Assembly: GCA_021432635.1 (NCBI GenBank)
Contig: MU270091.1
Coordinates: 186,001-250,000 of the forward strand
Source: Thozetella sp. PMI_491
Taxonomy: Eukaryota; Ascomycota; Sordariomycetes; Chaetosphaeriales; Chaetosphaeriaceae
DNA: 64,000 bases
Direction of reading: 5' to 3'
Below are positions 25,624 to 56,500 of this stretch, piece after piece. Numbering within the stretch: the first letter of the stretch is position 1; each line of letters opens with the position of its first letter. A program made the position numbers and the translations under genes. Under the pieces are notes generated by a model. The model was not told the DNA's origin and did not search any database. It saw only the letters and a list, made by a program, of their open reading frames with translations.

Positions 25624-26860
25624 TGATGAATTGTTGTGAGATATGGATTGAAAATTACATATAAACGCTAGCTTACGCAAAGAATCCACTTCTTCGCTAC
25701 TGTATCCATAGGTAAGCAGCCTATCGCCCTTTTAGTGGGGAGCTCTCCCCTGTAAGTTAAGGCTTTTCAGCTTTTGGAATAGTTAGCCAGCTGTTAAGCT
25801 CTTGGCATCAGACCGAAGCTTGACACTAACTAACTACTAATCTGACCGAAGGTTATTATTACGGTGCTTAAAAACGCTAAGCTATGGCGAAATTGCTTAA
25901 AACTTATGACGAAATCGCTTAAAACTTATGGCGAAATCGCTCTCTTTATGGATTAGCTCACGAGCTTTTTACTCTATTAAAAAGTGGCTCATTGCGCTGT
26001 AATTAGGTTGAAAAACAGCTTCCCTACGCTACAGCCAACGTGGATTGGCTTAAAAAATCAACCCCTAAGCAAAACAGGATACGATACAACTTACAGTCTC
26101 TAGGGACTGGCTTACAAGTAGTTTTATCCACTAAATAATAGATCTTAGCGCTATATATAGCTAGCTTAAACCATTATCCTAGAGTATATCTAGCAGCTAG
26201 ATTTTGCTCCAACCTTATTTTTTACTCTAGGCTAGATTATATCTCTTAATACTTCCTTACTTTACATACCAGCTGTTTAGTAAATATAGATCTTTAAAAT
26301 CTACTCCCTAAGCAGCTTTAATACAGGGATTACAGTCTGTTTTTCGTTACTAATCAGTTTCTTAACTTAAAAAGACCCTCTGCCCCCCTGACTAAATCCT
26401 GTTTAGATTGCCGGTGATCTAAGGCTATTAGAGTATATTATAAGCGCCTTTATATTACTTATTAGCTAATATTTACCAGTATAACTAGTCTAATACTATG
26501 CCTATAACTATTTACTTAATACAAATTACTTAACCCTTACTTGAAAAATAATCGATTAACAAGGCTAACCTCTTACTGCTACAGCTATAAATCCCAATAC
26601 ACGCTTTTTTTAACTGTATAAACAAGCTCATAACGCAACAACTAGCTGCTAGTATCCTAGAAAACAAGGCTAAAACTCATGCTTACACTACGTATTAACA
26701 GTAGTATATCTAACACAAGCACTACGCGCTACACCAAGGCAGTAAAATTATCTCTTAGACTCCTACTCTAACTACTCTTTAAGCTATTTTTAAAGGGTTA
26801 AACACTGAAAATAAGAACAGACCTATAATTATATTAGGATCCCCTTTAACGCCTAGAGGA

Positions 26861-27380
26861 GGTTGTCTAAGAACATAACTACTTACTTCTCCTATAACAT
26901 ATAGAAAAGGTTAGCTAAAAGGGTACTTACACACTTCTAGCCCTAATAAGGATAGCACTAAAGCATTTTAAGAGCTCCCTCTAATACTAGCACATAGATA
27001 AGGTTGTCTAAAAACACAACTACCTACTCCTCCGCTAACACATAGAAACAGCTGGCTAAAAAGGTACTTATACACTCCTAGCCCTAGTAAAGATAGCACT
27101 AGAGTATTTCAGGAGCTCCCTCTAGTACTAGTATATAGACAAGGTCAAGCTAAAACACAGCTGCCTATTCCTCTACTAACACGTAGAAACAGCCAGCTAA
27201 AAAGACACTCACACACTCCTAGCCCTAGTAAAGATAGTGCCAAAGCATTTCAGGAGCTCCCTCTAATACTAGCACACAGACAAGGTTAAGCCAGAACAAG
27301 GCTGCTAACTCTACCGCTAGTATACAGAGTTAACTAGCTAGGAGTATGCCCACATACTCTTAGCCTTATTAAATATAATA
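26861..27380 (+). repeat. 141-bp tandem repeat, about 3.7 copies
   Basis: Copies start at 26861, 27002, 27143 and 27284, each opening GGTTGTCTAA or a derivative. Each contains a conserved CCTAGCCCTA-n2-AAAGATAG phrase and an AGGAGCTCCCTCTA phrase. The period is exactly 141 bp, or 47 codons, so it would have been an in-frame amino-acid repeat upstream of the Helitron protein before RIP. Confidence 0.75.
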
Positions 27381-27399
27381 TTTAAGTATTTTAAAAGCT

Positions 27400-30300
27400 T
27401 ATTCCCTTATTCTCTAGTAATCTAGATGCCCTAGCTCTTAATAAAGCTAATAACACGTTATTATAAGAGTTTAACAATACGTTAAACATAGAAAAACATA
27501 AGCTTTATATATATTATAAGTAAAAATAGTTTAATATAAAGCTAAATCAAAATAATATATATAAGAAGTGCCTCGCTATAGATTTGTAAAAATATATAGA
27601 TAAGCCCTTTTTTTACTTAGCTAAGAATCAGCTTAATTTTAAAGACGTACCAAACAAGCTCCTAATGCTAAATATAGTTAAAGAAATACTTATCGCACAA
27701 GTTTATGTTTTTATCTAGGTCTACTAGGTATATAGTTAGCAGTATAAATATTATAGCTATATCATCCACTTCCTACATAATATAGGTAAGATATACCATA
27801 AGCTTTTACTATACCCAGAGCACCTTGATATCATTCTCTTATAGTTACTAGATTAAAATCAGTAGTAAGAAGCATAGTTTTAAAAGTAATTTACTATATA
27901 TAAGTACTATATTAAGTAATAGCTAAAGTATCTCTATCGCTATTATCTAATATATTATAATTTCATATAAAATAAACACATGTTAAAAAGCCTTCTAAAA
28001 AACAGCTTTATATTTAATTATATCTATATAAAAACAATTACAAGTAAAATCAGTCTTAGCGCTACTAAGGGCCCTATATCTAACCCTAACAACAAGCCTA
28101 ACCCTAATAACTACAATAAAATCACTATACTAAATATTACTACTATATAGACTAAGCTAGAATAATTAAAGGCAGATATTAATCAAGAGTACCTTAAGGA
28201 GCCCCTTATAGAGATACCTCTAGCTATACAGCAGCTAGAGAGTGCCTATCAACTTCTAATGCCCTTTATACAGAGAACGCTGCTCAACAAGCTAAAACAA
28301 ATATATCTAATCTTTTCGTGCGCCTTTCCAACGTTATTTCCACATAGAAGCGCTGATTTTAACCTCCCTAGGAAGCATAAGATCAAATTTATAAACTAGA
28401 TTAAGCATATAATACACTAGAACAATAACTACTTTACTTAGCACCCTACCTTCTGCTTTATTACGTTAAATATATTAATATAGTAGCAGGTATAATTAGG
28501 GAGCTATTATTATATAAGTAAAAACAGCTCTAAGCAGATCTTACTTAAAAAGCTCTAAGTAGCTCTAACTAACCTAGATAGGCCAGTAGGGAGCGCTCTC
28601 CTTACTTCTATCCAGCAAGCTTCTGCCCAGCTCAAGGGTACACACACTTTCTAAGGCTATTAAAGGCATAAATATAAAGCTTTTACCTATTATTTAAGCG
28701 TTTTAAGCGCTTTTATTATATTAAGCCCAGCTAATAACTATTAGTATAGCTTATATTATTATATGCCTTGTTTTAATAAGTAGTGCTAGTATGCTAAAGC
28801 CAATCAGATATAACTCTTAAGAAAGCTTCTTAAGAAGAACCCCTATATTATAGCTTAGCACTTTTACATGTAAAACAAGCTCTTCTATAATATTATACTA
28901 AAGAAAAAGTTTAGCTTATACAATTTTTAATACTAGTATAAGTAGCAGGGAAAGGGCAGCTCTTACTCCTACAGTCTATACTAGTTTAGTCACGCCCCTC
29001 TACTAGATATAAAAAGTAAGAAGTAACAAGTAGATTTTACTTGTAAATAGGGCTTTTAGATCACTACTATAAACCTAGAACCACATAAGCACTAGGAACA
29101 AGATAAGGGCAACCCTCTCTTAGTAAGACCATAAGACCAACTAATAACATTTAGATATCTTTCCCGTATAATCAACCATTACTAGTATTATTCCTACTCT
29201 ATAATATATTATCTACACATAAAAAAACACAAAGCACTAGCTATATAGGGTAAAACTACACCAGCACCTACCCCTAAGTACTGGTTCTACTTCCCCTATC
29301 TAAAGCACCCAGAGCTATAGGTAGATAAGGTACCCGGCTCGCAATACTATAGGTTTTATACTTAGCATAATAATCTATACTTAAACCAGCTCTGCCCTAC
29401 GATAAGTTTAGTATAGCTAGTAAATACTAACTTCTCTCTCTATACTAATATATAAGCAGTAGTTAATTATATAGCTAAATACTACTTTAAGATAAAGTAG
29501 AAAACCGCTAGCTATACTAATCTAGCTAAGTAGATACTGCTATATATTACTCCTAAGTATTCTCTATTCTCTTTTACCATTAAATTAATAAATAAATTAG
29601 TCGCTAAATATAATTACTTAGCCTAAAAGGTAAGCTATATCTTACTCAGCTTACCCTTATAAGAAGATTTACAGGTTATATAGATTATAGATTACTAAGC
29701 ACTAAGTAAATAGTCTCAAGCCCTTAATCTAAGTATAGACAATACTTTAAAGCACTAATCTCCCTATAAAAAGTATCTCAGGTGTAATATCTCATGCCTA
29801 AGGGCTATAGAGCTCTTATACCTCTAATTTCTTACCTTATAAAAGTAGAATTATACTCCTACATAGTAAGGGCTATTAAGTAGCTACGCATAGGAGCGAG
29901 TTCTATACTATATACCCCATTACAAACTAGATCTATAATCCCTATAATTTAAAGATTTTTACAGGGTAAAGCTTATACTTAGCTATCCTTATACTAACAA
30001 GAAATAGCTTTTTTATATTAATAATATAATATTTAATATATTTAAAGAGATATATATATAATACTAGCAGGTCTATAGTTATAAGGATAACTAGTATAAC
30101 TCACTAAAGGTAGAGAAAGATAAGTTTAAGGAGTAGCTAGAAGTGATAGAAGAGCTACAGGAGAAAGACTAGCTTAAACTTACTTAGATACTTCCAGATC
30201 ACACACCCACACAGGAACTATATAATCTAATTAAGCACAAAGATCTAAATCTTACTTACAGATAGGAAGACTATATTAGCCACTATATATATAACTATTT

Positions 30301-31780
30301 CCCTAACAGCACTTACTAAAGGGAGATTAAAGCAATATATTCTACTCTAGACACTAATTTTATTCCCCTAGAAGCATATAATACACTAAATACAAAGTAG
30401 CATCTAATATACAATACTATAATAAGCTATTCCAAGCAAAATTAGCCCATATAAATACTACTTTAAATCAATAGTAATAGGGGTATTAGTAAATCATACC
30501 TAATTAAGATCTTAGCCAGCCACCTCTAACAGGCTCTAAGGGAGAGCACAGTCAAGCTAACAGCTCTAACTAATACTATAAGCTATAATATCAACATAAA
30601 TACAATCTTTTTACTGTTATAACTACCCATAAATCATACATATAAGCCACTTACCCTAACTACCCTAGCTAATACCTAAAAACAACTAAAACACTTACAA
30701 TATCTCTTTCTTAACGAGAAAAGCATACTTAGTCTATACACTTTTTACTATATAGATCTATATTTACAGTAGATCTTTCCAGTATAGGATTAAGTCTTTA
30801 ATAGTATAAGTATTCTCTTAATAAGAGACTTCTTCTAGCTTCTACCAGTAGATAGTAAAGCTTTATTTACTCTTACTCCTACACTTTCTTTAAAGGAAGA
30901 GTATACAAGCAGATCTATTTATAACGCGTTTTCTCACTCTGTTTTCCTTAATATAGTAGAATATTAGTAGGGTAAGAGGTAGCTAGTGTTCTATTAAGCA
31001 CTAGAAGAGCTACACTAAGTATATATTTCGCTAGACTTATTCCAGCTCTTTTCCACCAGAGTAGCTATAGTTTTAACAGATTATAAACACATAGCATTTA
31101 AAAATACACTCTAAATCTATACTATACATAAAGAAATACGTTATTTTAACTATATCTAGCTTATAAAGCTAGATTTACTAGCTATCTAGTATATAACTAC
31201 TTATATTAGTACTAGTACAGAGAAAATAGATTCACAATATACTAGCAATCTCTCAGTAAAACTACCCCTTTACTTAGAGTTATAAGTAATACTCCTACAT
31301 AATATTACTATAGAATTTAAGCTTGTAAACAACGCTTAAGGCAGTATTTTTAATCTTAGATAGGCAGAGAACACTAATCTAGCATAAGATCCTCCCTTAG
31401 TAGTAATAGTTGCTTTTAACTCTTATACTAGCCCTGCCTTTACATTACCAGATAAGACCAAAATATATACTTCTAAGGGTAAAAAAGTAATACTAATACT
31501 ATAAGAAAAGTATAAGTTTATACTTAAAAGTATTTCCTACACCTAAGAATAATTTCTTCTTATCCTAGTATATATTATTACAGTCTATAAAGTATAAGGT
31601 ATAACTATAAACCACATAGTAACAAATCTAACAGTATAAGAATTTATATCTAGGCTGTTTTACATAGCCTATTCACGCATTACCACCCTAAAAAGGCTTA
31701 TATTTAAAGAGCTATTTAATCACAGTCTGCTCTAAAAGGAGAAGCTAGGTCTTAGTACATTTCTCTATACCAGTACAATT
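27400..31780 (+). pseudogene. RIP-mutated Helitron Rep/helicase gene
   Basis: One + frame, ignoring stops, shows the order of a fungal Helitron protein. An N-terminal block has VPNKLLMLNIVKEILIAQV (about 27645). Helitron-like Rep N-domain text lies around 28.66-29.1 kb. AVVNYIAKYYFKIK (about 29457) matches the YxAKY motif that precedes the replicase. The Pif1-type helicase follows. Its Walker A is degraded to NRGISKSYLIKIL (about 30478), Walker B to YLFLNEKSIL, then RDFFQLLPVDSKALF, and a C-terminal VYKV-stop-GITIN (about 31577) where HKSQGIT is expected. Dozens of internal stops make it inactive. It should once have driven rolling-circle transposition. Confidence 0.8.
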
Positions 31781-32911
31781 CTACTATCCTAATTTACTAA
31801 TAATATATATATAATTACTAAATTATAGTTAGCTAACTAGGATTACTGTTTTACAATATAATTATATACACCTCTCTTTATACTATAAAGCTAAGTATAA
31901 TACTCTTTATCTTTAACAGCTTTTACTTAGTATAGGCTTTATTTTAACATACTCTTTATAGCGCTTAACTCTTTATTATATACTAAGATATATACTCATA
32001 CGTTAGAACTAAGGAGAAGAAGTATAAAAAGTAATAGATCTATTAATCCCTTAACTATAAACCAAGCAAGATACCTCCTAAAACACACGCTAAGACAACA
32101 TCTACACAAGCAGCTATAACAGCAGTAAGTACTCTCAAGCAAATACTTTATATATAAATCGCTAATCTAACTAGCTATTACCCTACAAGATATATATAAG
32201 CTATATAAAGCATAATATTATAAAAAGCTATATTTAGTCAGCCAATAAGTATTAGACTAGCTTCCATACAGTATTCCACTAACGCTTTTTACTAAATATA
32301 CATATTAAACACTATAATACCTACCATACAAGCAACCACAAATACCTAAGCATTCCTTCCACTACTAGCCCTATTATACAGGCTTTTATAATCAAAGTAG
32401 CTAATAAAAGAGCTAAAACAAGCACATAAAAAACAGGTTTCCTCCTATAAAATTACTCACAAGCTATTACTAATTACAGTATTAGGTGTTTAATAAAGCA
32501 TATAAAACTACCTACAAGGCTATTAAAGATATAAAAAACACAGCAGAGCAAAACAACCCTATAAATATAAACCAAGAACAGCTCTTACACACTATTTTAC
32601 ATACTATAAAGGAGATTCACAATTCACTCAAGGGCTAGATTTACTTTATAGCTAACATAAGCAGTACTAGCACTAGATTAAATAATACTAGTGGTTTTAC
32701 AGTAGAATAATAGTTAACTATACGTTTTTAAAGCTATTCAAGCTATTCAGCTATTAAACATATTATTCACACCACAATAGTATTATTAAATAACTATTAT
32801 CCACACTTATACAATAGCGTTTCAAAATACTCTCAAGCTAGTTCTAGATATATATTTCCACACTAAGCCCTTACAAAACAGCTTTTTTCCTTAGGCTATA
32901 CACAAGTTAAG

Positions 32912-32934
32912 TTTTTTTTTTTTTTAAAAAAAAA
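32912..32934. repeat. T14-A9 homopolymer junction
   Basis: A run of fourteen T followed by nine A, self-complementary over nine bases, inside the AT-rich block. A possible hairpin or a relic of element ends. Confidence 0.5.
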
Positions 32935-33690
32935 GCAATTTTTACTATACATTTTAAGAGCTTTCACTACTCTAACACTTTTAACTTACACTTTTCAGAT
33001 TAAGACCATAACTACTATTACTACACCACCACAAATAAGTTACTCTCTACATATATTTTACATTATAAAATCGCTAATTACATTATTTATAATAACTACC
33101 TCTAGCCATATTAACAAGGGCAACAAAAAGGCCATCCGCCACTCCCACCAGGGTTTTAACCCTATTAATAATCCACAGATTAGTTTAACTCCCAAGCATT
33201 TTCTATCTAGTTAATTTTACATCAACACTAACTTTCTTTAGGATCCCCCCTAAGAGGAAGAGGCCCCTATAGCCAAGCAAGAGGTAAGTTAATCCCTATC
33301 TATTTATACATTTATTATTCTACGTTTAACACTAGTTTAGTATTAGTATAAGCTAATTAGTATATAGAATAATATTCCCTGTATTACTTGTATTAGCTAT
33401 ATTAACTATAACAAGACAGTCTATTATATACTAAACCCTAGTAAGTAGCTCTTTTAGTACAGTTGTTTTATACTCTAGTATAGAGTTTTACAGGTGATAT
33501 TAATATAATAGCTAGATTTGTATAAGGATAGATACACCAAGTACTTAACTAGCAACTATAACTGCCCCAAAGTGCCCACTATAGCAAAGGGTGCTATACA
33601 CACCTTTATAGAGGTAGTTTCTACTCGCCACGCCAGCAAGGTAAAGGATAAGATAACTAGATCATACTCAAGCGCTAAAACTATAACTAA

Positions 33691-33857
33691 CTAACTGTAT
33701 TAGGCCTATAAGAAGGCCTACAAACTGGCCAGAAAGGCCATTAAGAACGCCAAGGAGGCGCCGGCCAAGGAGGAGCTGGACAAGCGCACGCTTTTACGCG
33801 CTATCTTAGGAGAAGTGCACGCTCTGCGCGCAGATCTCGCTGCCGCCCGCGCTTAAG
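33691..33857 (+). pseudogene. Unidentified transposon-like coding tail, undamaged
   Basis: The frame reads AYKKAYKLARKAIKNAKEAP, then a Lys/Glu/Ala-rich coiled-coil-like helix, ending VHALRADLAAARA and a stop at 33855-33857. The same frame upstream (TRHASKVKDK, 33.63 kb) carries stops in AT-rich sequence. It looks like the 3' end of an element gene whose 5' part was RIP-mutated. The family is not recognised. Confidence 0.4.
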
Positions 33858-33922
33858 CGCAAAATTTGATAGGGTTTTAGTCGTTTTATGAAAGTAGATA
33901 CCCCTGGTCTGCCCCCCGCGTT

Positions 33923-33945
33923 TTTGCGCCGGGAAATGGCGCAAA
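33923..33945. repeat. Short GC-rich hairpin
   Basis: TTTGCGCC and GGCGCAAA flank a 7-base spacer, just 3' of the unidentified coding tail. Possibly a transposon-end hairpin or a terminator-like structure. Confidence 0.35.
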
Positions 33946-35216
33946 GCGCCAAATAAAACTTGCTTTTCCCACGCCCAATCTATTTTGCTCTCTACGTGAC
34001 CTTTGGGCAGACATATACCTATAAGCCCCGCAGGGCCGTGACATAGGTATCGCCGGAGCGTAGCGGAGACTATTTTACCTACAAAGCAAGGTCGGTTCAA
34101 CAGCTACCTCACGGCTTTAGCTATAGCTACGAGGCCCTGACAACCCTTTCTTAAGGGCTTGAGTGAGGTTTTAAGAGTTTTCCCTTACTAAACAAGAGCA
34201 CCCGACCCCGATCAAAGCCGACTATACTGGTGTGTAGCCTTAGCTACACACAGTACGTGTCCTGAAACCATCAACTGGGTGGCCAGCGCCGGCCAATGAG
34301 AGCCCCCCTGATCAATAGGTATTGTCGTACGGCAAAGTATTAGTGTACAAATAACTATTGTGGTAAGATAGCAACAGAGTATTGGCCAATGCTTGGTGGC
34401 CACCCTAATCGTTGCCGTTCCCTACATACTTCTGGCATGGTATACATTAAGGATGTGTATCTGACCAGTATTGTATCTGAAGGAGATATCCGACTTTCCC
34501 TCTTTTTGGGCAGAGTATTTCTCGGCTTTTGATGCTAGCTAGACCTTTTGATGAAACCACGAAGTTTGCTGGATTCTGCCCAGGGTGAGCAACAACTTTA
34601 CAGTCAGTTGTCAGCACTACTCTACACGAACTTTTGGATCTCTGTATCTGCACCAAAACAACGGACCCAGTCATTTATTAGTGACTGCTGGCAACGATGA
34701 TCTCCAAACCTAGCTTTTCCTTCGTTTGAGAACTAACGGGACTCTTCCCCTAGACCTGGTTTCAACTCCTCCTGTGTCACATCCGAATAGCATCAAATAG
34801 CCGGATGATGGTGCTATAGGAGGTTTATACTATGTATAAACTTCCTAAGATATCTACCTAAGATGCTGAAATGTCATGTACAAACGACACATGAAAGGTC
34901 AGGAAGTGAAGGTGACGTGCTAGTGAAGTTGTACTTTGTAACTCCAAGCTTCCAGATACTTGCCTACAAGTAAACCAGCATTATGATGTGCAAAGAGCCC
35001 CAACCCTTCCAGGGGCGATTGAACCCGCCTTTGGATAGGCCTGGGCTTTCAGAATTGTTCCAGTTGAAGAAGAATTCAACCTCAGCATCCAACTTTGGCC
35101 GGAGTATATGAGAGATGGGCCTTGAATAATAACTTCTGTGCTGTCTAGCTAGCTGTTGTGCAATTGGAAGAGTTTACTCCTTTGGGTGATTCGTTAGCAT
35201 GTGATAAGTCCTGATG
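33946..35216. other. Intergenic region between transposon block and RiPP precursor
   Basis: Composition is normal again. Short ORFs only, none with motifs. Includes a small inverted repeat (ATACCTAT / ATAGGTAT at about 34014-34050). The last few hundred bases are the 3' flank of the precursor gene. Confidence 0.4.
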
Positions 35217-36054
35217 TTAGAAGAGTGAAGGTCTTACCTTCTTCTCGCGCCAATAATGGGCCGGGCCGAACAGAACATCAACATGCTCATCGTCAGCCCC
35301 AACCTCACCATCTCTCTTTTCGTTAGAATCCCGGCGCCAGTAGTGGGCCGGACCGAACAAAACATCAACATGTGCGTCATCGGCTGAAACCCCACCATCC
35401 CTCTTTTCGTTAGAATCCCGACGCCAGTAGTGAGCTGGGCCGAACAGAACATCGACGTGTTCATCATCAGCCACAGTCTCGCCCTCTGCGGCCTCGGCCC
35501 TCTTTTCGTTAGAGTCCCGGCGCCAGTAATGGGCCGGGCCGAACAAAACGTCCACGTGCTCATCATCAGCTGCAGCCCCATCATCTCTCTTTTTGGAAGA
35601 GCCCCGACGCCAATAATGAGCTGGGCCGAACAGAACATCAACATGCTCGTTGTCAGCCACAACCTCACCATCCCTCTTATCCTTAGAGTTCCGGCGCCAG
35701 TAGTGGGCTGGGCCGAACAGTACATCAACATGCTCATCAGCAGTCGCAGCCTATAAATCACGCCGTTAGGGCTTCTGCAGGGCTTAATTGTGTTGACGGT
35801 TAGACAAAAGGGAACAGACGGGAGTTACATATGTAACTTGTCCTTGACGGAAGACGACCCTGCCGTTTCGCCGGTAGTAGTATGCTTTATCAACCACAGG
35901 ACCATCCGCCTTGCACCCGACAGTGTGAGGGTTGTGGGTTGGCTGTTTCGCTTAGGAACAGTACACTTACCACCGCAGAATCTACCGGTGCTGCACAGAC
36001 GATGGAACAGGCTGCCAAGCCGAGCAAAGCAATGCTACGGAGAGTTGCTCCCAT
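35217..36054 (-). CDS. Dikaritin-type RiPP precursor with six core repeats
   Basis: Two exons on minus: 35971-36054 (28 codons) and 35217-35750 (177 codons plus stop), 205 residues. The 220-nt intron has donor GTAAGT at 35970 and acceptor TAG ending at 35751 with CTAAC upstream; phase is 0. Exon 1 encodes a signal peptide (MGATLRSIALLGLAACSIVC, then AAP). Exon 2 is six tandem units of about 29-33 residues. Every unit holds the invariant HVDVLFGPAHYWR inside a variable acidic/Ala/Gly spacer. Units 1-5 end in a Lys-Arg Kex2 site (for example RRDSNEKR); unit 6 ends REKK and then six residues. This is the known layout of ustiloxin-, phomopsin- and asperipin-type precursors: secretory leader, repeated core, Kex2 sites. 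Two UstYa oxidase genes lie 1.6-4.2 kb away. The core is not one I recognise, so product and bioactivity are unknown. Confidence 0.88.
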
Positions 36055-41963: not shown

Positions 41964-43829
41964 TCACCAAATCCAGGACCATTTCTTGACAGGCTCCTCC
42001 TGGCGGCTGTCCAGTGCGTGATCCGCCACTGTAACAGCCGATGTTTCAACTTCCCTTCCCAGCGCTTTGTTGCTGAAAAAGTACCATGAGCTCTGGAAGA
42101 TGACCTCAACGACAACCGCTGCAGAGAGTGCCAGGCACGCAGTGAACGCGTTGAGGTATAGAGGCGCATCCTGTGTCTGAAATACATAGCTGCCCGCTAT
42201 ACCAGCAGAGTTTGCACTCATTATCATGATGCTGTGGTTCTGTATTAGTGTGATCATCCATACAACGAGAAAGGTTATAGCAGGGCTTTGTGTTAGTATA
42301 GACGTACGCCATAGCAACGCTGCGCTCTTGAGGGCGCCGGCAATTCACAGAGATCCACCCCACGTTGAGAATGTGCGTAATTGAGTTGGTCGCCATCGAG
42401 AAGACGACGGCCGCGTAGCGACTACCGGAGCTCCAGGTGCTGCTATTCCTGAGGCATGAATACGCAATGAGACTCCAAAGGGCCTCAAGAAGGATCCACG
42501 GGCCTCGGATCTGGGTCTTGTCGCACAGAAAGCCCAGAAGGACCACGACCACAACGGCAGTGAAGGCGCCAACGCTTGCCATTGCATTAGCACGCGCCGT
42601 TTCGTAACCCAAACTCTTGATGACCTATGCAATTGGTAAAATTAGCAGCTACTCCTCTTTTGGTCTTGGCTATGGCCACCCCATATTCACATACCGACGG
42701 GCCGTAGGTGTTGATCGCATTTACAGGTATAGTCCCAGTCAGCGTGATCAGGGCGTGCACCAGTATTCTGGGGTTCGTGACTGTAGCCCACACGTCGCTG
42801 CCCGTGATTCGGAGTTGATTCGTCTTTTTCGTAGGGTCGTCGAGCAGTACGCGCCGGACGAGGACGTAGGACTCTCGCCGCGTGAAATACGACCAGCGAC
42901 CAAAGCTCACGAATGGGGAGCCATTACCAACCCGAGGAGGAAGCAAAAGGCCAAAGATGATGCCGATCCCAATTGTCATCGCTCCTTCAACTGTTATCGG
43001 AGGGGAGTGTTAGTCAATGGTCGCATCACCCCGCTATTTTCGTACTGAAGCGTGACATAAAAACGCACCTATGAACAGCCATCTCCACCCAGGAACACCA
43101 TATCGGTTCCCCATGCTCAGAATACCTGCTCCAATGAGCGAGGTCGTCGCAGAAGCGAGTAGGTTGCCAAGGAAGAATATGGAGATGCGAAGGCTTGTCT
43201 CCGACTTCTTATACCACGTCGACATAGTGTAGAGCGCCCCGGGTATGAACCCAGATTCGCACAGACCAAGGAGGATACGCGTGACTAGGAAGCCGGCGTA
43301 GTTGGTGATGAAGTTTTGAAAGGTGGCGACCAAGCCCCAGGCAATGATCTGGCAAGTGAGCCAGCGCTGAGGGCCAACGCGCTGTAGTAAGATATTGGAG
43401 GGGATCTCGAGAAGGACGATGCCAGCCGAGAGGAGACTATTGCCGATGTTGATCTGGTTTGTAATCACGCCCAAGTCCGTAGTCAGCGTGCTTGTCAGCG
43501 CATTCGCGATGTTTCCGCGGTCCATCTGTAAGGCAAAGAATGCCAGGCCGAGGATGGGCAGCAGGATAAAGTCGAGCCTGGGAAGTTAGTCAAGGCTCTC
43601 CTTTCCGTAGATGATTACTCCATGAGCTAATCACCTACTTGGTTCGAACGCGACGTTCTTCCTCTTCGGACCACTGGAGATTCTAGGTTAATGATTGCCT
43701 AATGCCGCTGAATAGCATCCCCAAGGGCCTCGGGAAACGTACGTCGGCCGTTGTGGACTCATCAATGTTGGCGGCGATGACCTCCTCATCGCCAAAGCCT
43801 TCTTTAGCATATGTCTCGGTGGCTCCCAT
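41964..43829 (-). CDS. MFS transporter, Dal5 (allantoate permease)-like
   Basis: Six exons on minus, 43743-43829, 43639-43673, 43577-43069, 42990-42695, 42624-42304 and 42239-41964, encode 507 residues; all joins keep frame. One donor (gtctat at 42303) is weak. Features are WSEEEERRVRTKLDFILLPI, then DRGNIANA after TM1, GLCESGFIPGALYTMSTWYK at TM4-5, and around twelve hydrophobic segments. This is the anion:cation symporter/Dal5 branch of the major facilitator superfamily, which moves small organic acids, vitamins or peptides-like solutes across the plasma membrane. It lies between the RiPP genes and the NRPS gene and could serve either, or neither. The substrate cannot be predicted from the sequence. 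Confidence 0.82.
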
Positions 43830-44529: not shown

Positions 44530-47500
44530 TCACGAAAAGGCCAGGCCCCTTGCCTTCAAACCAGAAAACACACTAGCACAGGTCAAATGCCTGTCACGAC
44601 CTTCTAACATCATGTCTATCACCGCTTCGATACACGCAGTAGCCATCGCGGCGTGGCGCTCCTGCACCTCGGAATCCCACCATGAAAGAGTCACATGAAG
44701 TCCCTCTTCCAGCTCCGACAAGGCGACGACAACATCATATGGCATGGGATCACGGATGCTGATCGGCTTGAAGCCCAAGCCGGCGTTCTGTGGCCCCTCT
44801 GTGTCGCCGTCACGGCCCTTGTCGTGGGCCGAAACGTCAAACTTGCGGAAGTTTATTAGAGTGTTAAAGAGCTCCCCAGGCGGCGGAAGGCCAAGTGCTT
44901 TGCAGGCCTCGGATGGTGCGACGTGCTGGTGGGGCAGACCTTCGAGCACCTGCTCTTGCACCCGGCTTAGAAGATCCGCGATTGTCATGGCTGCCACCCC
45001 CTTGGCGGCCCCTCCATATGTAGCGAGCGGTAGAACTGGTCGGCTCATCACTGTGTCGACGAGGAAGCCTACCATTTCGTTGGGGCGAAGATTCCGGGTG
45101 GACGGGACGGTATGGCGGGCGTTGGCTAGGTAGCCAAAGAGAGGCGTCGAGTCGCGCGCTTGGCCGCCCGTGGCATACTGGAGCACGAGAGCCCATGCGG
45201 CGTAAGCCAGGGATGGCATTGTTACTTCGTATGCTGCACAGAGAGCGCGAAGTTCGGCGCCGCGTCCTAGCTGCTTCTCGATGGAGCGGAGGCCGGAACG
45301 GGATGGAAGCGCAATGGAGGAGGTCCCTCGGCGGTTAGGAAACAGGCACGGCTTGGCTGTCCCGAGAGTACGGCGATAGTGCGCATAGCCCGCGGAATTG
45401 TCGAGCGCTTCGACGTGGTTGACGTAGAGACTCATTCCCGGCGCTGAGCCATGAGGGAGTTGGCCGGCATATGCACGCGCGAGGTCAGAAAAGATGATCA
45501 GGGTAGACGGGCCGTCTGTGATAGCGTGGTGGACTGTGGTTGTGCCGTGTGTCAGTATAATGTCTAGCATCTCAGAGAGGGGCATTTAAGCCAGTCGACT
45601 TACTGTCAAACTTGCAAACCAGGCGGCCTCGAGAAGTGCGGCAGATCGTCAGCCTGTGGAGGGGCTGGCGGTAGTCGAACTGGAACGGCTGCTGGTAGGC
45701 TAGAGTCGCCATCAAGTTTTCCTCTTTGCATTCGATGTGAACGACATTGGCTTGTGATTGCGCAAGGAGGATCTGGTGGAACTTGGCCGATGAGGAGTGT
45801 CCCCTAATGAAAGCGGTGCGCAGTGATGGGTGACGGCTGACGACTTGCCGCCATGCAGTCTCTAGATGCCTAGCATCGAGCATCGTAGAGTCTGTTGGGG
45901 GAGTCAACTCGAGAATTTGCTGCACGTGGTAATATTCAGAAGCAGGATCGTCTGCGCTGATTTGTAGGACCTCCTGCTGCGAGGGAGAGCACGGGTATAC
46001 GGCCTCGATCTCAGTTAGATCGGAGTAGCCCATCCTCCCTAGGTCGAAAGCAACTGCCGCTGGAATAGACCGCTGGTCCTTGCGTGATGAACCGGTTGGC
46101 TTTGAGCAGTCGCTTCCGTAGTCGGTCATGGACTCTTCGGTGACGCTGCTCGGGGTAGAAGCGCCAGAAGAGGAACTGCTGAAGTAGTTGGTCTTGCCCG
46201 TGCTGTTCGAGGACGTGAATGGCTGGCTGCCGGCCTCGAAAGTCTTCTCTTCGCCCGTTTTTTCGGATTCGATAAGAGCTGCTTGTCTGGAGATCGTCTT
46301 CGCAGTCAATATATCGGCGACGGATATTGAGATGTCCTTTTCCTCGGCGGCAGCGGATAGTCGCATGGACAAGACCGAGTCGCCTCCCAGTCGGAAGAAG
46401 CTGTCATCCATGCCAATTGTTTCTTCTTCCAAGTCGAGAACCTCTGCCCAGATAGAACGCAGCGTGGTCTTCAGATCGGAGGTGGGCTCGTCATTCTCGT
46501 CGCTAGTCAGTGTGTATACTCGGAGTTGTGCGCCACTCAACTTCGAGACGATCCGGCTCAGCTCGCCCCTGTCGGTCTTCCCGGAAGCCGTCGTTGGCAA
46601 GCAGGATAGTGGCACATAAGCCGAAGGCACCATATGAGAAGGCAGGTCATTGAAAAGATTACTCCGGAGGTCTCGGAGGTGCGCACGCATGTGGTGGTCC
46701 ATCTCGCACACAACCGGCCGGCCGGTGCCGACCACGAAGTCCACTGCCAGAAAAGCAACAAGTATGGCTTCAGATTCTTGGCCAGGGACATACACAGCGT
46801 TCACAGCTGCGTGCTTAATGATGGGCCCAGCGTGGAGCTGCACCTGGTGCTCGATCTCGCCCAGGTCAATGCGCTGGCCAAGGACCTCCACTTGTGCATC
46901 TTTGCGTCCAAGATAGTCGAGTGTTCCGTCCGAGGCGTAGCGGACCAGATCCCCGGTCTTGAAGAATCTCCGGGGGATGCGTGACTTGTCGTTGATTTTG
47001 GCCCATGTCGGATCCCAGATGAAAGAGTCATTGGTCTCGTCTCGATTATTGAGGTAGCCACGGGCTAGGAGGGGACCTTCAATTAGAAGATCTCCTACAC
47101 AGCCGATGGGGAGAAGGCGGTTAGGATCGGCTGCGTCGACCACCCACATCATGCTTGCGAGCCCATAGCCCAGGTTGGAAGCCCTGTGGCCGGTGCCACC
47201 CACGTCAGACTTCCAAGCAGCGATTGACGTTTCAGAAGAGCCATAGGCGTTGTAAAGATCGATTGCGTTCTTCCAAGTGTCGCTCACAACGGTGGGGATG
47301 ACTTCGTCGACCAGCACCAACGTCTTCAGTGTGGGAATGTCGGTGGGGTGTAGGCGGTTGGCGATGGTTGGCGTGAGACAAGCCCAGTTGGCTCGTGTCT
47401 TCTTGATGGCACCCGCGAGGTTATGGAGACGGTCGTGCTCTGAAGGAATGCATACACAGCCGCCACGCTGCAGGGTGGTAAGCACCTCGACGATAGCTAT

Positions 47501-50500
47501 GTTGCTTGCGAGCGACGAGAAATGCAAAACTCGGGTGGACTGTCCGATGCCAAAAGCGGAGCCATGGGCTCGCGCACCCGTGCAGATGGTGCCATGCTCT
47601 AGGACAGTGCCTCGCAGCCGCTCGGTGTTACGGGAAGTGTAGATAACAAAGGCTGTGTTTCCCGAATAGACTGGCGTATCGGGGGCGTAAGTGTGCTTAA
47701 CCACCTGGTCGCTCTCGAAGAAAGCCTGATCGACAGTGATGACTGTCTCACAGAGCCCTTGGAATAACTTGCTAGGTTGGGGTCCGGCAAGAACCACGTT
47801 TGCTTGGCAGTCGCCCAGAATCCTACGAAGCTGGTCAAGAGGGTGGGAGGGATCGAGCGCAACACATGCGGCGCCGGCCTTCATCACGGCTAGCACGGCG
47901 ATCACAGCCCACAGTGATTTGTCGAAGCAGCAAGGGACAATCTCCTCAGGCTCAATGCCCATACTAATCAAGTGATGTGCCAGGACGTTGGATATTTCAT
48001 CAAGCTGGTCGTACGTCAGCTGTCCATCCCAAGCTTCGACGGCCGGCGCGCGGGGCCGTAGAGCCACCTGCTGCTGGATGACATGATGCACACAGGCGTC
48101 AAAGTAGTCAGGCTGGTGCTTATTCCATGATGCAATTTCGAAGCGATCTTGCACGCTGATCCAGTCCAGGCCTTCCAGTGTCTGTGCCTTGGACTCGGAG
48201 TTGAGTTGGCGCAGTAGATGTTCGAAAAGACCGACGATGCGCTGCATCTGCTGAGAATCAATGACGCTCTGGTCGTAGTCTACAGAGACCATGACCCCTG
48301 TCCCGCTTGGTGCACACTCGAGGATCAGGGGGTATGTGTGGAAGTTGTCTGCCTCGCGCGTCTTGACCTGCTCCAAGTCGAACCCGGGTCCTCCAGACCC
48401 CTCATCGTTGGCGGGGTGAATCACGAGGAGGTTCTTGAAGTTGCAGGCAGTATCAGCATCAGGGCTTACTCTCTTGATGTTCTGAAGCCCTGTGTTCTCA
48501 TACGGCATCATGGCGCTGCTTTGTTCCTGGATGTCCTCGAGGAATTGATGGATCGAGGTGCTGGGGTTGATCGCGACCCGGACGGGGATTGTCGTGATGG
48601 TCGGACCGGCAATCTGCGCGATTCCCGGGACTGGTGCACTCCGCCCTGAGAGCGTGACGCCGAACACAACGTCGGCACTATTCGAGTACCTAGAGACCAG
48701 CATGGCCCAGGCACCACGGACAAGACTTGGCATGGTGAACTGAGATGCCTGTTTCCGAGAGAGTTTGACAAATTTAGTTATTTTGCCATCCCTCCTTGTA
48801 GTTGGGGAAATGGGAACTGTAGGGAAGTCGGTTGGGCGGCTTCCTGCAAGCTGTGTTTGCCAATACTTGGTCATCTCGGCGGGGCTCGTTGCGTTTAGGT
48901 GGCGAATATAACAGTTAAAAGGCGTCAGCGTTGGGACATCACGTCCCTGGTAGAGGTTCCAGGCCCTGTCTAGCATCATCGGGGCGGACCAGCCATCGTA
49001 GATGGCATGGTGGAGGGTCCACACGAAGTATCTGCGATGATACTGTGCGATGTGCTTTTCCTCGATGATGGCAAACCGAGCTAGCGGCGTTCCATAGCTC
49101 ATGAGCTCCTGAGAGTCTTGGCGCAAATATTCGTCGAGGGAGGCCGCCGCGAACCAGGCGATGGGCTCCTTAACGACCACCTGGAGGGATCCGGAAGTTC
49201 CACCAGGGACGATCCTAGTCCGGAGGGTTTCGACGCTGTCGGCCGTAGCTTGCCAGGCCGCTTTGAACTTGGTAACGTCGACAGCCTCGGGCAGAACGAA
49301 TGCTTGTTGCTGGATATATGCACCCTTCTGCTTTGCGGTCAGGGCAACCATCCCTTCCTGGAGGGGGGTCGTCGGGTAGATGTCCTGGATCCCGTGCATC
49401 GGGATGTTGAGCGAGGAAGTTACTTGCTGGAGAAGAATCTTCTTGTCTATCTCCGGCCCAAGTAGAGAGAAGGGCGGCGGAACCAAATTCGCAGCCCTGA
49501 TTGTCTCCTCCGTCCTGGCGAGCAACTTGGCTAGGCTGCCTAGAACCGGAGTGCTGAAGATATCCGCGACGTTGATAGTCATGCCAAGTGATTGGGCCGA
49601 AGATGCTAGCTCCATTGCCTTCAGAGAATCCCCGCCGGCTCGGAAGAAGTGCTCTTCGACACCTAGAGATTCCGCTGGCACAGAAAGGATCTTTGCCCAT
49701 AGTTCCAACATTGCCACCTCGGCATCGGTCGATGGCGGTGTTTTCGTAGTTTTAGCAGCTAGGGCGTACATTGCCAGCTGATCCTCATCAAATTTTGCAC
49801 CTAGTGACTTGAGCATCTTGCGATCAAGCTTCCCAGAGCGGTTCAGGGGCAACTCCCGAACGGGCACGATGATAGATGGGATCATGTAGGCAGGTAGCGA
49901 CTTGGTGAGTGACGAGAGTACGTGCCCCAGGTCGCTCTGGAGATCCAAAGTCATGCTCAGAGCGAGCTCCTGGTCCTGTTCGGTATTGCTGTTGGATTGA
50001 TGGGGCACGCAGATGAAGGCTGCCAGCATCTTAGTGCCCATCTGAGTCGCAATAAGCTCCACAGCGAGGTCGGTAGCGGCCGGCATGGCTTTCTTGAAGT
50101 TGTGCTCTATCTCTCCAAGCTCAAGTCGCTGCCCACGAAGCTTGACCTGGGAGTCTTTGCGGCCCAGGAAAGTCATAGTGCCATCGACGTTGTACTTGAC
50201 GAGATCGCCAGTGCGATAATATCTCTTGCAGGCTTCGATTTCAGCGGCCCAAGCTGGGCTTTCAACAAATGTCTCGGCTGTCTTCTGCTCATTCTTGAGG
50301 TAGTGCCTAGCAAGCATGTGACCTTCAACCAGAAGCTCGCCAACACAGCCCACGGGAACCAGGCGGTGGTAGTTGTCCTTGTCGACGATCCAGTTCCGTC
50401 CACCCACCGCCTGCCCGATGTTGGCGGGGTCCGTCTGCGGCGTCATTAAGTTGGCAGCTACACAGACGGCGCACTCGCTAGGTCCATAGCCGTTGACGAG

Positions 50501-53500
50501 CTCGATGTGCGACCAGTCGACTAAGTCATCCTTGGACATGGCCTCTCCGGCAAGTACCAGGGTGCGGAGGCTGGGCACCATCTCAGGCGGGATGATTCTG
50601 GCGAGAGAAGGTGTGATAATGGCCTGGTTAACGTGGAAGCGATCGATGAAGCCCACGATGTCGTTGGACCGGTCGTCCTCGCTCGGGATACATACGCAAC
50701 CACCGACGATCAGGGTGGTCATGATTTCCACTAGCGATGCATCAAAACTGAAGGTGGCAAACTGCAGTACGCGAGAGTTTGGCCGAATGCACAGTGCTTT
50801 GCTGTGGTCGAGGGCGCTGGTGCAGAATGCTGAGTGCTCGAGAACGCTACCCTTCGGTCGTCCCGTCGTACCCGAGGTGAAGATGACATATGCTGCATTT
50901 GATGGGGTAACGGCCGACCTTGGGCACGAGAATGTGCGACGCGACGATGCCTTGAAGGTGTGGGCGTTGAGTCGGAGCCCCTTGGGTCCGAGAGCCTCGC
51001 ACATCTTAGCCTGCTCGTCCGAGGAAATTAGGTATTCAGCCTCGATGTCTCCGATGATGCCCTGGAGGCGGTCGACCGGGTGCGAGGGATCGAGGAGCAC
51101 GAAGGCAGCACCTGCCTTCAGGATGCCAAAGATGGCTACGACAGCCCATAGGCTCTTCTCGAAGCAAATCGGGATGTAAGTCTCAGGACGAACACTGTAT
51201 CGCGAAATGAGATGCTCCGCAAGCTGGGAGGAGAGGTTGTCCAGGTCGCGGTAGGTGAGATTCCCGTTCCACGCGGCGACAGCTGGCGAGTTGGGCTGGC
51301 GTATGGCTTGTTTGCGAAAGAGTTCATGGATGCAAGATTCTTCCTTGCGGGGCAGATCGCTGTTCCAACTGAGAATTTGTTGACGATCGAGAGAGCTGGA
51401 GGCGTCGATATCGCCAACTTTTGTCTCAGCCGTTGCCTCGTTGAGCTGGCGGGCGACATGCTCGAGTTGGTGGAGAATTCGATTCATCTGGCCTGGTAGG
51501 AGGATCCGCGGATCGTAGAGTGCTTCCAGGGTGACTTCTTCCTTGCCAAGGCGGCACTCCACTGTGAGAGGGAAGTCGTGGAACTCCAAGTTCTGGCGGG
51601 ATACGGGCTTCATTCCCAACATGCAGTCCATGCCGCCGCTGCGCTCGGGCTGCACCACCAGGAGGTTCTTGAACTTGCACGCTTCCCGGTTGTCTTCTCC
51701 GAGTTTCTGGATGTGTTGCAGTCCGAGATACTCGTGGGGAATCATGGAAGTGGATTGCGCCGTGAGCCTTGCAAGATATTCTGCCACCGTCTCGTTAGGA
51801 GCAATGTAAATGCGTGCTGGCACCGTAGCCATAGTAGGACCAACGATGGATGTGACGCCAGATACTGGGACGTTTCGGCCGGCTAGGGTAAGACCAAACA
51901 CGACCTCGTCTGAGTCAGTGTACTTGGAAAGGAGGAAAGCCCAAGCAGCGCGCAGCAAAGTCGATGTGGTGATGTCGGAGTCGGCGGGCCTTTCTAGTTG
52001 GATCTTGTACTCAAGTCGAGTGTCGGCGCGGGCCACCTGGGACTGTTCGGAAAGCTGCGGAAACTGGGGGCTCGCAAACCCGGCAAGCTCGCGCCTCCAG
52101 TACTCCTCGGACTCGGTAGTGGATATACTGGCAAGATAGGCGATATAGTGGTTGAATGGTGTTGTCCCCAACAGCGGCCGCCCCTCGTAGGCGCGCATAA
52201 CTTGATCCCACACCATGGGCATGCTCCATCCGTCGTATAGGGCATGATGGACAGACCAGAAGAAGTACTTGTCGGAGGTCTTCCTGTCATTTAGAATTGC
52301 ATACCTTGCAAGAGGCTTGCCGTACTCAGTAGGCAAGGTAGCATCCCGGTGGAGGTATTGCTCGCGCGTCTGGCTGTTGGTGTCCTCCCATTTGAGGCCA
52401 CTGGAAAGAACAACCTGAAGATGCCCGTAGTTCTTGGTCTTGATGATGCGGGTTCGGAGAATCGGCAAGGACTGTACTGTGTGCTCCCAGGCCGTTCTAA
52501 ATCTCGCCACATCAAGAGACCGCGGCAGCAAGAACTGGTTGTCGCGCGACATATAAGAGCCCGGCTGGCGGATAGAAGACACAACCAGCCCCTCTTGTAA
52601 GGGGGTGCATGGATAGATATCTTCCACCTCGTTCTGCGAAACGCCGGACAGCGACTCTACCTCTCGCAGTAGCTCAGTCTTTCCAATACCGGAACCCAGT
52701 AGGCTGAATGGCGGGACAGACACTGCTTCTGCAGGCCCCTCTGTGCCAACGACTGTGGCAGCCCTGGCCATGTCATGGAGTACAGGAGCCCGGAAGATGT
52801 CTGCAACTGCCAATGACACGCCGACGTCGTCGGCTGCCGCCACGAGCTGCATGGCTGCAACTGAGTCGCCTCCAAGCCCAAAGAAATTATCGTCGGCGCC
52901 GATGAGATCAGGACTCATGTTCAATACTTCGGCCCAAAGGTCTCGGAGGGTGCTTTCAGTGGGCGACTGTAGCTCTGCCTTGTGCTTGAGTTCTTGTAAC
53001 GAGTAGTCCGCATGACGCGATTCAGGAATTGCCTGGGCAAGTTGGCAGAGGCGTACACGGTCTATGGTTCCTGTTTTGTCGGTAGGGGCTCGAGAGATTG
53101 GGAGGAACATGGACGGTACCATGTGGGACGGTAGAGCGTGGGTGAGTCGGGGTTCCGCATCGGCAATCAACACTCGGAAACTGTCGGTCATATCCAAGAC
53201 GCGGTTGTCCGCATTATTTCTTGCCCCTGAGACGGATTCAACGACAAAGACTGCCAGAACCTTGTTGTTCGAGGACGGTGAAAGCTGAATTGGCTCGACA
53301 ATGACGGCTGCCACGGAAGGGAGCGTCTCTTGGATGCAGGCTTCGACTTCGTTGACGGCGATGTGCTGGCCACGTAGCTTCACCATGGAGTCTTTTCTCC
53401 CGACATAACTAAGAGTACCATCTGTGTTCAACCGTACAAGGTCGCCGGTTTTGAATAGCCGTTGAACACTTGTACCAGCAGAGACCTCCCAAGGTCGGCG

Positions 53501-56500
53501 GTCGAGGAAGGCGTTAGAAGTCTCCCGAGGGTCATTGAGGTAGCCCCGAGCCAGACCGGGGCCTTCAAGAAGCAACTCTCCCATAGCCCCGATCGGCACA
53601 AGCTTGTTGTGGTTATCTGATTCCACAACCCAGGTCAAAGCGCCTAACCCAGCACCGATATTTGCAGCAGATTGCGCCCCACGATGGGCGCGGTTGATGC
53701 ACAACAGGCTCGATTCTGCAGGGCCATAGGCGTGTATCAAGCTCCCTGAGTCCTCCCAAGAAGGTACCGTCTCGCCGTCCGAGACAATAACAGCCTTGAG
53801 GCATGACACCTGGTCCGGAGTGATGGCAGAAGCTGTGAATGCAGGTAGGTGCGCCACGTTGACGTTCATCCGATTTATAAAGCCGGCGAGATCACTCTGT
53901 TTCTCCTGTTCGGACGGAACACAGATGCAGGCTCCATGGGTTAGTGAGGTGAATATCTCCCCTAGTGAAGTGTTTGAGCTGTAAGGGGCAAACTGTAGGA
54001 CCCTTGTCCCGCGAGTGATCCCGAACGCCTTGGCTTGATTGGGAAGGCTCGAGGCTAGGGCACGATGCTCTAGCATGACGCCTCGTAGGTTGCTATCCGG
54101 AGTGAAGATGATAAAAGCGAGATTGTGAGGTTGAACAGGGACGGGAGACTTGGCTGCCACTACTTGCAGGGAGAGTTGGTGGAGCTGAAGTTGGTCTGGT
54201 CCAAGAGGCACGAGACGGGCTAGGCCGGCATAGCGATCGGAATATGTAGCCTGCGCAATGACCACACTGATGCGAGACTCGGAAATGATAGCCTTCGCCG
54301 TATCCAGGGGTTGCTTAGGATCGAGAGCTACGCAAGCGCCGCCAGCCTTGAGAATTGCCAGCATCGCTAAGATGGCCCATGGAGAAGGTTCAAAGGCGTA
54401 ACCCACAATCGTTTCGGGACCGACGCCGAGCTCGCCAAGCTGAGAAGCCAAATGTTCCGCAAGGAGATTGAGCTCGAAGTAGGTCCAGCAAATCCCGTCC
54501 GCCGAAACTGCGGGAGAAAACGGCTGAGCAGATACGCGAGCCTCAAAGAGTTCATGGAGACAATCAGAGAGAGTAATAGGCGGCTCAGCGTTCCAAGATT
54601 GTATCTGTGCCATGCTCTGCTCGCTCAAGACGCTCAAATCAGTGGCCAAGGCACTGGGCATGCCAACTATGGCACGTATAGCAGCAGTCAAGCAAGACGC
54701 AATGTTCTCGGCTTGGGCATCTTCAAAGGTGTCAGACCAGTAGGTCAGAGCTGTCTCCAAGCTGCTGTCGGAAGACGCGACACCGATAGAAATGGTATGC
54801 TGGTAACCGGGTTAGTAGATGCTCTTTCGCTTTCGGCATACAAGGGTTTTTTGGGGGGTTTTTTTTTTCTTACCTCAGTTGGGTCATGGCCGCCGAGTGG
54901 CTTGACTGCGAGGCCGCTTTCTTCGAAGCCATCCGCGCCGTCGGAAGACCCGGAGACTGTCTGGAAGGACATAGTCGTATTGAACAAGGGCTTTCCTCCT
55001 GTGTCTAGGCGATGCTGTATCTCAGCCAATGAGCAGGACTGGTGCGGAATGCTGCCAATGTAGTCGGATCGCATTTGCTTGACCAGCTCTAGTGCCGTGC
55101 AATCGGGATCGATGTGCGCATGGCAGACCAACATGTTGACAAAAAGACCCACGGCCTCTTGAATTCCGTCAATTTCGGCATCGCGACCCGCGTTGAGGTA
55201 ACCGAAGCAGACATTGTTGGAGCCGGCGAAACTGCGCAGTACCAAAAGCCAAGCAGCCTGGACAACGTTGGCCGGCGTGACCAGGTTCTTGCGGCAGAAA
55301 GCGCGTAGTGGAGCGAAGCCATCGAAGGTTGTCTCGATTCTGCGCAGCTCTCGTGTAATCCCCTTGGTTTCACACAGCGCCGGGAACAGGCAAGGTTCAG
55401 CGTGATGCAAATATTCGCTCCAGTAGTTCAGCGACTCGGCCGGGGCGGTACGCTGGAGATGGGACACAAAATCGCTGTATCGTGGTCCCGGTGATTGGGT
55501 AATATGACCGTCGTAGAACATACCCAAGTCGCGGATAAGGACATTGAGAGAGAAGGCGTCACAGATGGCGTGCGTAATATCGAGGCGGCAGAATGTCTCG
55601 CCCGAAGCGGCCGTGCAGACCGTGAGTCGATGCGGGCTTCGGCGCATGTAGCCGCGCACTGGAGGTTGGTCTCTCAGGAACCGCACGGTATCTTTGTCAG
55701 ATTTGTCGCTCTTCAGGATTGTCACCTCGGGTGCCAGCTCCTTGAGTACGATCTGGACCACTCCCCCGTTGCGGGACACGCTGTCTGTAAACAGAGTGCG
55801 GAGGACCGGGTGGCGGCGCACAACATCATTCCATGCCCGCTTCAGACGAGCCACATCTATGCCTCTAGCAGTATCAGATGGAATGACTTCGAAGACGGAC
55901 TGTACGGCGTAGACTTCGGGGTCTTGTTCTTGGCTGAGCAGGATCGCATGCTGCATGGGCGTGGTGGGATAAATGTCCTCAACATCGGAGATGTCAGAGA
56001 CACCGATTTCTGGCAGACGCTCTTGTGCAAGAGCCTCGAATTCATTGTCATCGAGATCCATGAGAGTAAAGCTCCGAGATGTTAGACGAGCTTCTGTGTT
56101 GCCAGCGTGGAGGTTCAACGGAAGCTCGGTGGCGAGATCTTGACAGAGCCGAGCCCACTCGTGGATCTGGGTTTTGCGAGCGATGGCGTTGCTGTATATG
56201 AAAGAGACCTGAAAGCAGCCTTGAAGGACAGAAACCGAGATCTCAATCAGAGCCGGTCGCTCTACATCATCTCCGACGTCCGATGCGTACCTCTCATCTC
56301 GAGGCTGGAGGGCGAGCAGAGCGTCTTGAGTCTCGAGCTGCTGGTATTGACCTGTGTAGTTGAAGATAATCTCTACCGGCTCCGTGCTTCGTAGGTTTTT
56401 AGATCCCAGGAATTTGCTGGAGAAGAAGGAGAACCCGTTGTCGGGCACAGCCTGTCGTGAATCGTGAATCTTGCGAATTGCCTCAAGCACATTGTCTCCG

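Follow-up and report, generated by a model that had tools for sequence, protein, structure and literature searches.

A predicted cluster of three genes for a ribosomal peptide modified by UstYa enzymes in Thozetella sp. PMI_491, with a leader-like exon conserved in two paralogous clusters

In this work, we describe a cluster of three genes, one precursor gene and two UstYa genes (UstYa A and UstYa B), which, judged from the sequence, very probably specifies a ribosomal, UstYa-modified peptide. It was found in the genome of Thozetella sp. PMI_491, placed in Chaetosphaeriales, Sordariomycetes (72.3 Mb in 157 contigs), within a stretch of 64,000 nucleotides that was analysed as a whole and is called the window below (G000:C77:186001-250000). 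The initial annotation had assigned the architecture to the ustiloxin/phomopsin class; at the sequence level this holds good, with a repeat precursor, Kex2 sites and two UstYa genes all in place, and the assignment to the class of Kex2-processed repeat precursors with UstYa enzymes is thereby supported. The precursor contains, in addition, a conserved unrepeated exon (exon 2) that is shared with two other clusters of the same genome. The features are collected in Table 1.

Table 1. Predicted features of the cluster (positions in the window); all splice sites are predictions from the comparison of paralogues
Feature	Position	Strand	Basis
Exon 1, signal-peptide-like, MGATLRSIALLGLAACSIVCAAPVDSAV	35971..36054	-	C67 comparison; hydropathy
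Exon 2, candidate leader, ADGPVVDKAYYYRRNGRVVFRQGQVTYVTP	35820..35909, alternative end 35829	-	Paralogue conservation
Exon 3, repeat exon, six HVDVLFGPAHYWR	35238..35750	-	ORF and C67 comparison
HVDVLFGPAHYWR copies 1-3	35732-35694, 35645-35607, 35558-35520	-	From ORF residue numbers
HVDVLFGPAHYWR copies 4-6	35459-35421, 35372-35334, 35285-35247	-	From ORF residue numbers
Predicted last exon (Glu, stop)	35174..35179	-	After 58-nt intron 35237-35180; same phase 0 in C67
UstYa B, 5 exons, 267 aa	37668..38702	-	PF11807, E 4.9e-46
UstYa A, 3 exons, 272 aa	39347..40281	+	PF11807, E 5.9e-48

The gene model of the precursor was derived largely from a paralogous three-gene cluster on contig C67, which has the same exon numbers and phases as the cluster of the window and whose precursor carries seven copies of VDAAFG(A/S)PKYWR. 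Aligned with each other, the two precursor genes show the same four exons, each in phase 0. The signal-like exon comes first, and the second exon measures 81 or 90 nt; the repeat exon follows, and an exon of two codons closes the gene behind a 58-nt intron. A signal-peptide exon had been placed upstream of the repeat, and exon 1 agrees with this, as its hydrophobic stretch of 12 residues (mean Kyte-Doolittle value 2.61) looks signal-like by hydropathy. By contrast, the two-exon model with a 220-nt intron was not supported, since exon 2, which is in phase at both ends, lies within this intron and is conserved in two paralogues. In the comparison of the window with C67, 18 of the 30 residues of exon 2 are identical (pS 0.797, pN 0.251 over 27 codons), and its alignment gave a z of 7.7, the adjoining introns giving 0.9 and 0.2. 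The donor GTCYGT stands at the matching end of exon 2 in all three paralogues, and the 90-nt form is preferred on this ground; GTC is an unusual intron start. With the 90-nt exon, the window precursor would have a length of 230 aa and its C67 counterpart one of 209 aa. Likewise, the stop at 35217 is probably not the 3′ end of the gene, because in both the window gene and C67 a 58-nt GT-AG stretch directly follows the last copy and leads to the two-codon exon. The repeat exon thus probably leaves the ORF at this intron, so that VRPSLF would be missing from the protein. A genome search with a first exon-2 pattern returned four matches; the two located elsewhere, on C12 and C107, lie on contigs with no UstYa match among the matches listed.

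The third cluster, on contig C32, was reached through P0002, a protein of Thozetella sp. PMI_491 that matches C32 exons; the UstYa A protein of C32 is present in public databases. Here, homologues of UstYa A and UstYa B, both encoded on the minus strand, adjoin a precursor gene model on the plus strand. Its first exon is signal-like, its second reads VIEPYYYRRFGRVTYEQRRTSYLNN, and its third contains a single core-like stretch, TLQWWHPDYWDR. This core, recognised by eye only from P-x-YW or x-YW plus the following Arg, is encoded by an exon with no basic pair. When the 10-kb C32 stretch was searched with the precursors by tblastn, exon 2 was matched (E 0.004 and 0.012) and the core exon was not found. 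Exon 2 of C32 shares 11 of 25 residues with that of the window, and none of 20,000 shuffles was as good; similarity at the DNA level is weak (z 2.2 and 1.9). Intron 2 gave a z of 3.7 between C67 and C32, for which we have no explanation. A DNA pattern built from the three versions of exon 2, run over the genome with at most one mismatch, hit exactly the three known places (two hits with the reversed control), and this shows only the absence of a close fourth, as these copies were themselves the source of the pattern. A gene on C7, at an unrelated locus, outscores every single short C32 exon in comparison with UstYa B, and the C32 copy is therefore named “B” on the strength of where it lies and of its exon identity (62% and 44%). 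Taken as it stands, the C32 precursor candidate may be either a gene in use or a shrunken remnant.

The conservation of exon 2 is close to that of the enzymes (60% vs. 65%) and exceeds that of the core, and we read the exon as a leader for this reason; a leader better conserved than the core is the usual pattern (PMC6514808). On balance, we lean towards the view that the exon-2 segment is the leader recognised by the UstYa pair. A less plausible reading, to which we give perhaps one chance in several, is that exon 2 is itself a further core, tyrosine-rich and present in one copy (AYYY), and that each type of core has its own UstYa enzyme. Such a reading would accommodate the presence of YYYR in all three paralogues, the RR after YYY in C77 and C32, the two UstYa enzymes of every cluster and the tyrosine-rich core of asperipin-2a (PMC6514808). 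In C67, however, YYY is followed by RQ rather than by a basic pair, so Kex2 would not release it, and the conservation extends well past YYY, as in a leader. Returning to the leader, we tentatively propose, as a broader idea that may well prove wrong, that exon 2 (YYYR-x-x-G-(R/K)-V) serves as a conserved leader outside the repeats and brings in a constant pair of UstYa enzymes, the number of cores being free to vary, from one in C32 to seven in C67. If this is true, single-core UstYa precursors without Kex2 repeats escape repeat-based mining, and the leader motif offers a means of finding this class; the literature surveys covered detect precursors through tandem repeats. The choice of substrate by UstYa enzymes is not settled in the literature covered, and three clusters that share an enzyme pair and a leader-like exon within a single genome, and carry six, seven and one cores, make both leader recognition and single-core precursors testable.

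Two adjacent UstYa genes had been noted beside the precursor, and both were confirmed as complete models with PF11807 above the Pfam cut-off. UstYa A is identical to its C67 counterpart at 178 of 272 residues (pN/pS 0.30) and UstYa B at 173 of 266 (pN/pS 0.29), with equal exon numbers in the window and C67; the pair is under purifying selection. By eye, each enzyme has two HxxHC motifs (HQLHC and HVDHC in A, HLLHC and HHLHC in B), a feature of UstYa enzymes (PMC12048977). A predicted splice site falls within the second motif, where the public C67 model P0001 (GQ53DRAFT_664950, Thozetella sp. PMI_491), a relative of UstYa A, is spliced differently; P0002 has HVDHC at this motif. For UstYa B, a search by sequence revealed no relative of solved structure (two matches, E 0.37 or worse). 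Two environmental fragments of UstYa A, P0003 and P0004, come from metagenome contigs with lengths of 1.4 and 1.9 kb, which leaves no room for a precursor to be seen, and are 76% and 55% identical to UstYa A of the window, respectively. By eye, P0004 is closer to the C67 gene, so the C77/C67 duplication may predate a species split. In the genome as a whole, at least 149 UstYa (PF11807) exon matches were counted (150 of 203 candidates scored), and this unusually rich set may conceal more precursors.

Between the window (19.0-45.6 kb) and the compared stretches of C67 (30 kb) and C32 (10 kb), matches at E ≤ 1e-6 were confined to the precursor and the pair of UstYa genes. The search for related precursors beside UstYa genes, suggested at the outset as a check and made in this genome only, gave a positive answer. 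The recurrence of the precursor with the same two enzymes in three clusters, while other neighbours differ in the compared stretches, speaks against the idea that the precursor yields peptides secreted in linear form and without modification, in the manner of pheromones or effectors, beside UstYa genes with another role, and so does the retention of F, Y and W in the core. We consider this idea improbable, even with 6120 of the 7878 surveyed repeat precursors lacking DUF3328 within 15 genes (PMC7329392) and with UstYa enzymes being active in other pathways too (PMC12048977).

As for the surroundings, minus-strand exon(s) of an MFS transporter at 42109-43585 separate the UstYa genes from a group of NRPS frames (43037-43585 matches PF07690, E 3.1e-20); the transporter found no match within the compared C67 and C32 stretches. 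The large NRPS frames (44533-64000, minus strand; 3079, 1773 and 1307 aa) carry condensation, AMP-binding and carrier domains and extend past the end of the window. Their membership in the pathway of the precursor was considered and set aside for want of support. An AT-rich island spans 26001-34000 (GC 27-39%, composite RIP index about +0.9 to +1.4), and the index falls to −0.5 to +0.1 in the two 1-kb segments that start at 35001 and 36001. This places repeat-induced point mutation beside the cluster and not within it.

The repeat exon contains, just as the initial annotation stated, six identical copies of HVDVLFGPAHYWR in a minus-strand ORF (35750-35217), starting at ORF residues 7, 36, 65, 98, 127 and 156; Tandem Repeats Finder scored the array at 487 and 507. 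When the six cores were compared in all 15 pairs, no non-synonymous difference was seen and the synonymous ones averaged 5.47, which indicates that the repeat is kept by selection and not by chance; the seven C67 cores differ by 0.57 non-synonymous and 5.0 synonymous changes per pair. The codon pattern and the paralogue largely refute the reading as a chance open frame or as a protein with structural or low-complexity repeats, which is also hardly credible given the basic cutting sites between the copies, the lack of any Pfam family above the curated cut-off and a single weak PDB match (E 0.037), for all that tandem repeats arise easily and a few Pfam matches fall below the cut-off.

In aligned units of the two genes (9 of the 13 window and C67 units; both final copies, which lack RR, and one near-duplicate per gene were excluded), V, D, F, G, Y, W, R and R are invariant, and by eye 6 of 12 core positions are conserved between the window and C67. 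The residue preceding V varies in the C67 copies (Q, S, N or G), so the core probably does not start before V. We infer that the core is VDVLFGPAHYW or a part of it, probably 11-12 residues at most. The calculated [M+H]+ is 1303.647 for VDVLFGPAHYW and 1440.706 for HVDVLFGPAHYW, and each cross-link would lower it by 2.016. The core had been thought unusually long for a dikaritin; this view was not supported, as the repeat unit is not the core. The repeat units of the ustiloxin, phomopsin and asperipin precursors, 13, 14 and 8 aa long (Umemura 2020, PMC7329392), hold shorter cores of 4 to 6 residues (PMC7329392, PMC6514808), and the epichloecyclins are nonapeptides (PMC9233826).

Judged by its sequence, the core corresponds to no named product known to us. 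The core strings did not occur in the open-licence PubMed Central literature, and none of the listed papers that name Thozetella has a title on such peptides. The protein collection, which does contain Thozetella UstYa proteins, yielded no precursor homologue at E ≤ 1, either with the two-exon protein or with the C77 and C67 repeat-exon alignment as a query (for the latter, best 8000 candidates scored). Plasmid records gave no match, as expected. A genome scan with a core pattern produced 16 matches, five in the window gene, six in C67 and five elsewhere; the last were rejected as chance, being single copies in short frames, including one on C6 that lies 3.7 kb from a UstYa match but is immediately followed by a stop.

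The Lys-Arg pairs reported after copies 1-5 are present, shortly beyond each copy, but the RR directly after the same copies, itself a Kex2 site, had gone unmentioned; copy 6 is followed by REKK. In C67, RR follows copies 1-6 and RK copy 7, and KR is absent. KR as the key cutting site is therefore not supported: RR immediately 3′ of YW is found in five of six window copies and six of seven C67 copies, and the conserved predicted cutting site is the basic pair immediately after Tyr-Trp. The 230-aa model of the window has 12 basic stretches in all. The Kex2-type domain PF01483 has one match in the genome, on contig C4.

In the ustiloxin-type route, as described in the literature (PMC7329392, PMC6514808, PMC4740483, PMC9233826), a precursor with a signal peptide enters the Golgi, is oxidatively linked by UstYa enzymes, cut by Kex2 and trimmed. 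By analogy, the signal peptide would take the precursor of the window into the secretory path, where the UstYa pair would recognise the exon-2 leader and UstYa A and UstYa B would join side chains of the aromatic core by oxidation, most likely at the conserved Tyr-Trp pair. Kex2 would cut after the RR that follows YW, as well as after KR, and a carboxypeptidase, to judge from known precursors, would trim the peptide back to ...HYW. The product would presumably be cyclic.

Genes of this kind are already known in many fungi; nine dikaritin clusters are described for Venturia inaequalis alone (PMC9632046). Kex2-processed repeat proteins (KEPs) are defined by an N-terminal signal peptide and by three or more repeats, each 8 aa or longer, set between KR, KK, RK or RR, and 1758 of 7878 surveyed KEPs lie near DUF3328 genes (Umemura 2020, PMC7329392). 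The window precursor, with six copies and basic pairs between them, resembles these in its signal-like exon, its repeats and the adjoining UstYa genes, and differs in the conserved unrepeated exon 2 and in a core not found in print; a relative of it may stand in the supplementary list of that survey. In having a DUF3328/UstYa enzyme in the cluster, here two with PF11807, it agrees with the dikaritins. The older definition of these called for five genes, including a tyrosinase and a methyltransferase (PMC12048977). On C77, no tyrosinase (PF00264) appears among the 80 matches listed, and the nearest on C67, among the matches listed, is about 146 kb away. The Pfam scan of ten window ORFs, a partial annotation in which spliced genes could be missed, showed no methyltransferase and no recognisable reductase.

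As in the ustiloxin and phomopsin precursors, an acidic stretch precedes the repeated core of the window gene and a basic pair follows it (PMC6514808), and the clusters of those precursors also have two or more UstYa genes. The core differs in lacking the Tyr-x-Ile-x motif of the ustiloxin type (PMC7329392), since its Tyr is followed by Trp and it has no Ile, and those clusters have a tyrosinase. Asperipin-2a, whose small cluster lacks a tyrosinase and combines a tyrosine-containing core with a UstY enzyme, is similar in these respects, but it has one such enzyme, as opposed to two here, and a reductase in addition (PMC6514808). Finally, lichen UstYa clusters with no recognised repeat precursor share the UstYa genes, and a single-core precursor is raised there as one possibility (PMC12048977); on C32, by comparison, a candidate single-core precursor is flagged by the shared exon 2. 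Thus, while the kind of gene is familiar, this peptide, the leader-like exon 2 and the single-core sister gene look new, and the last two are the parts that deserve tests.
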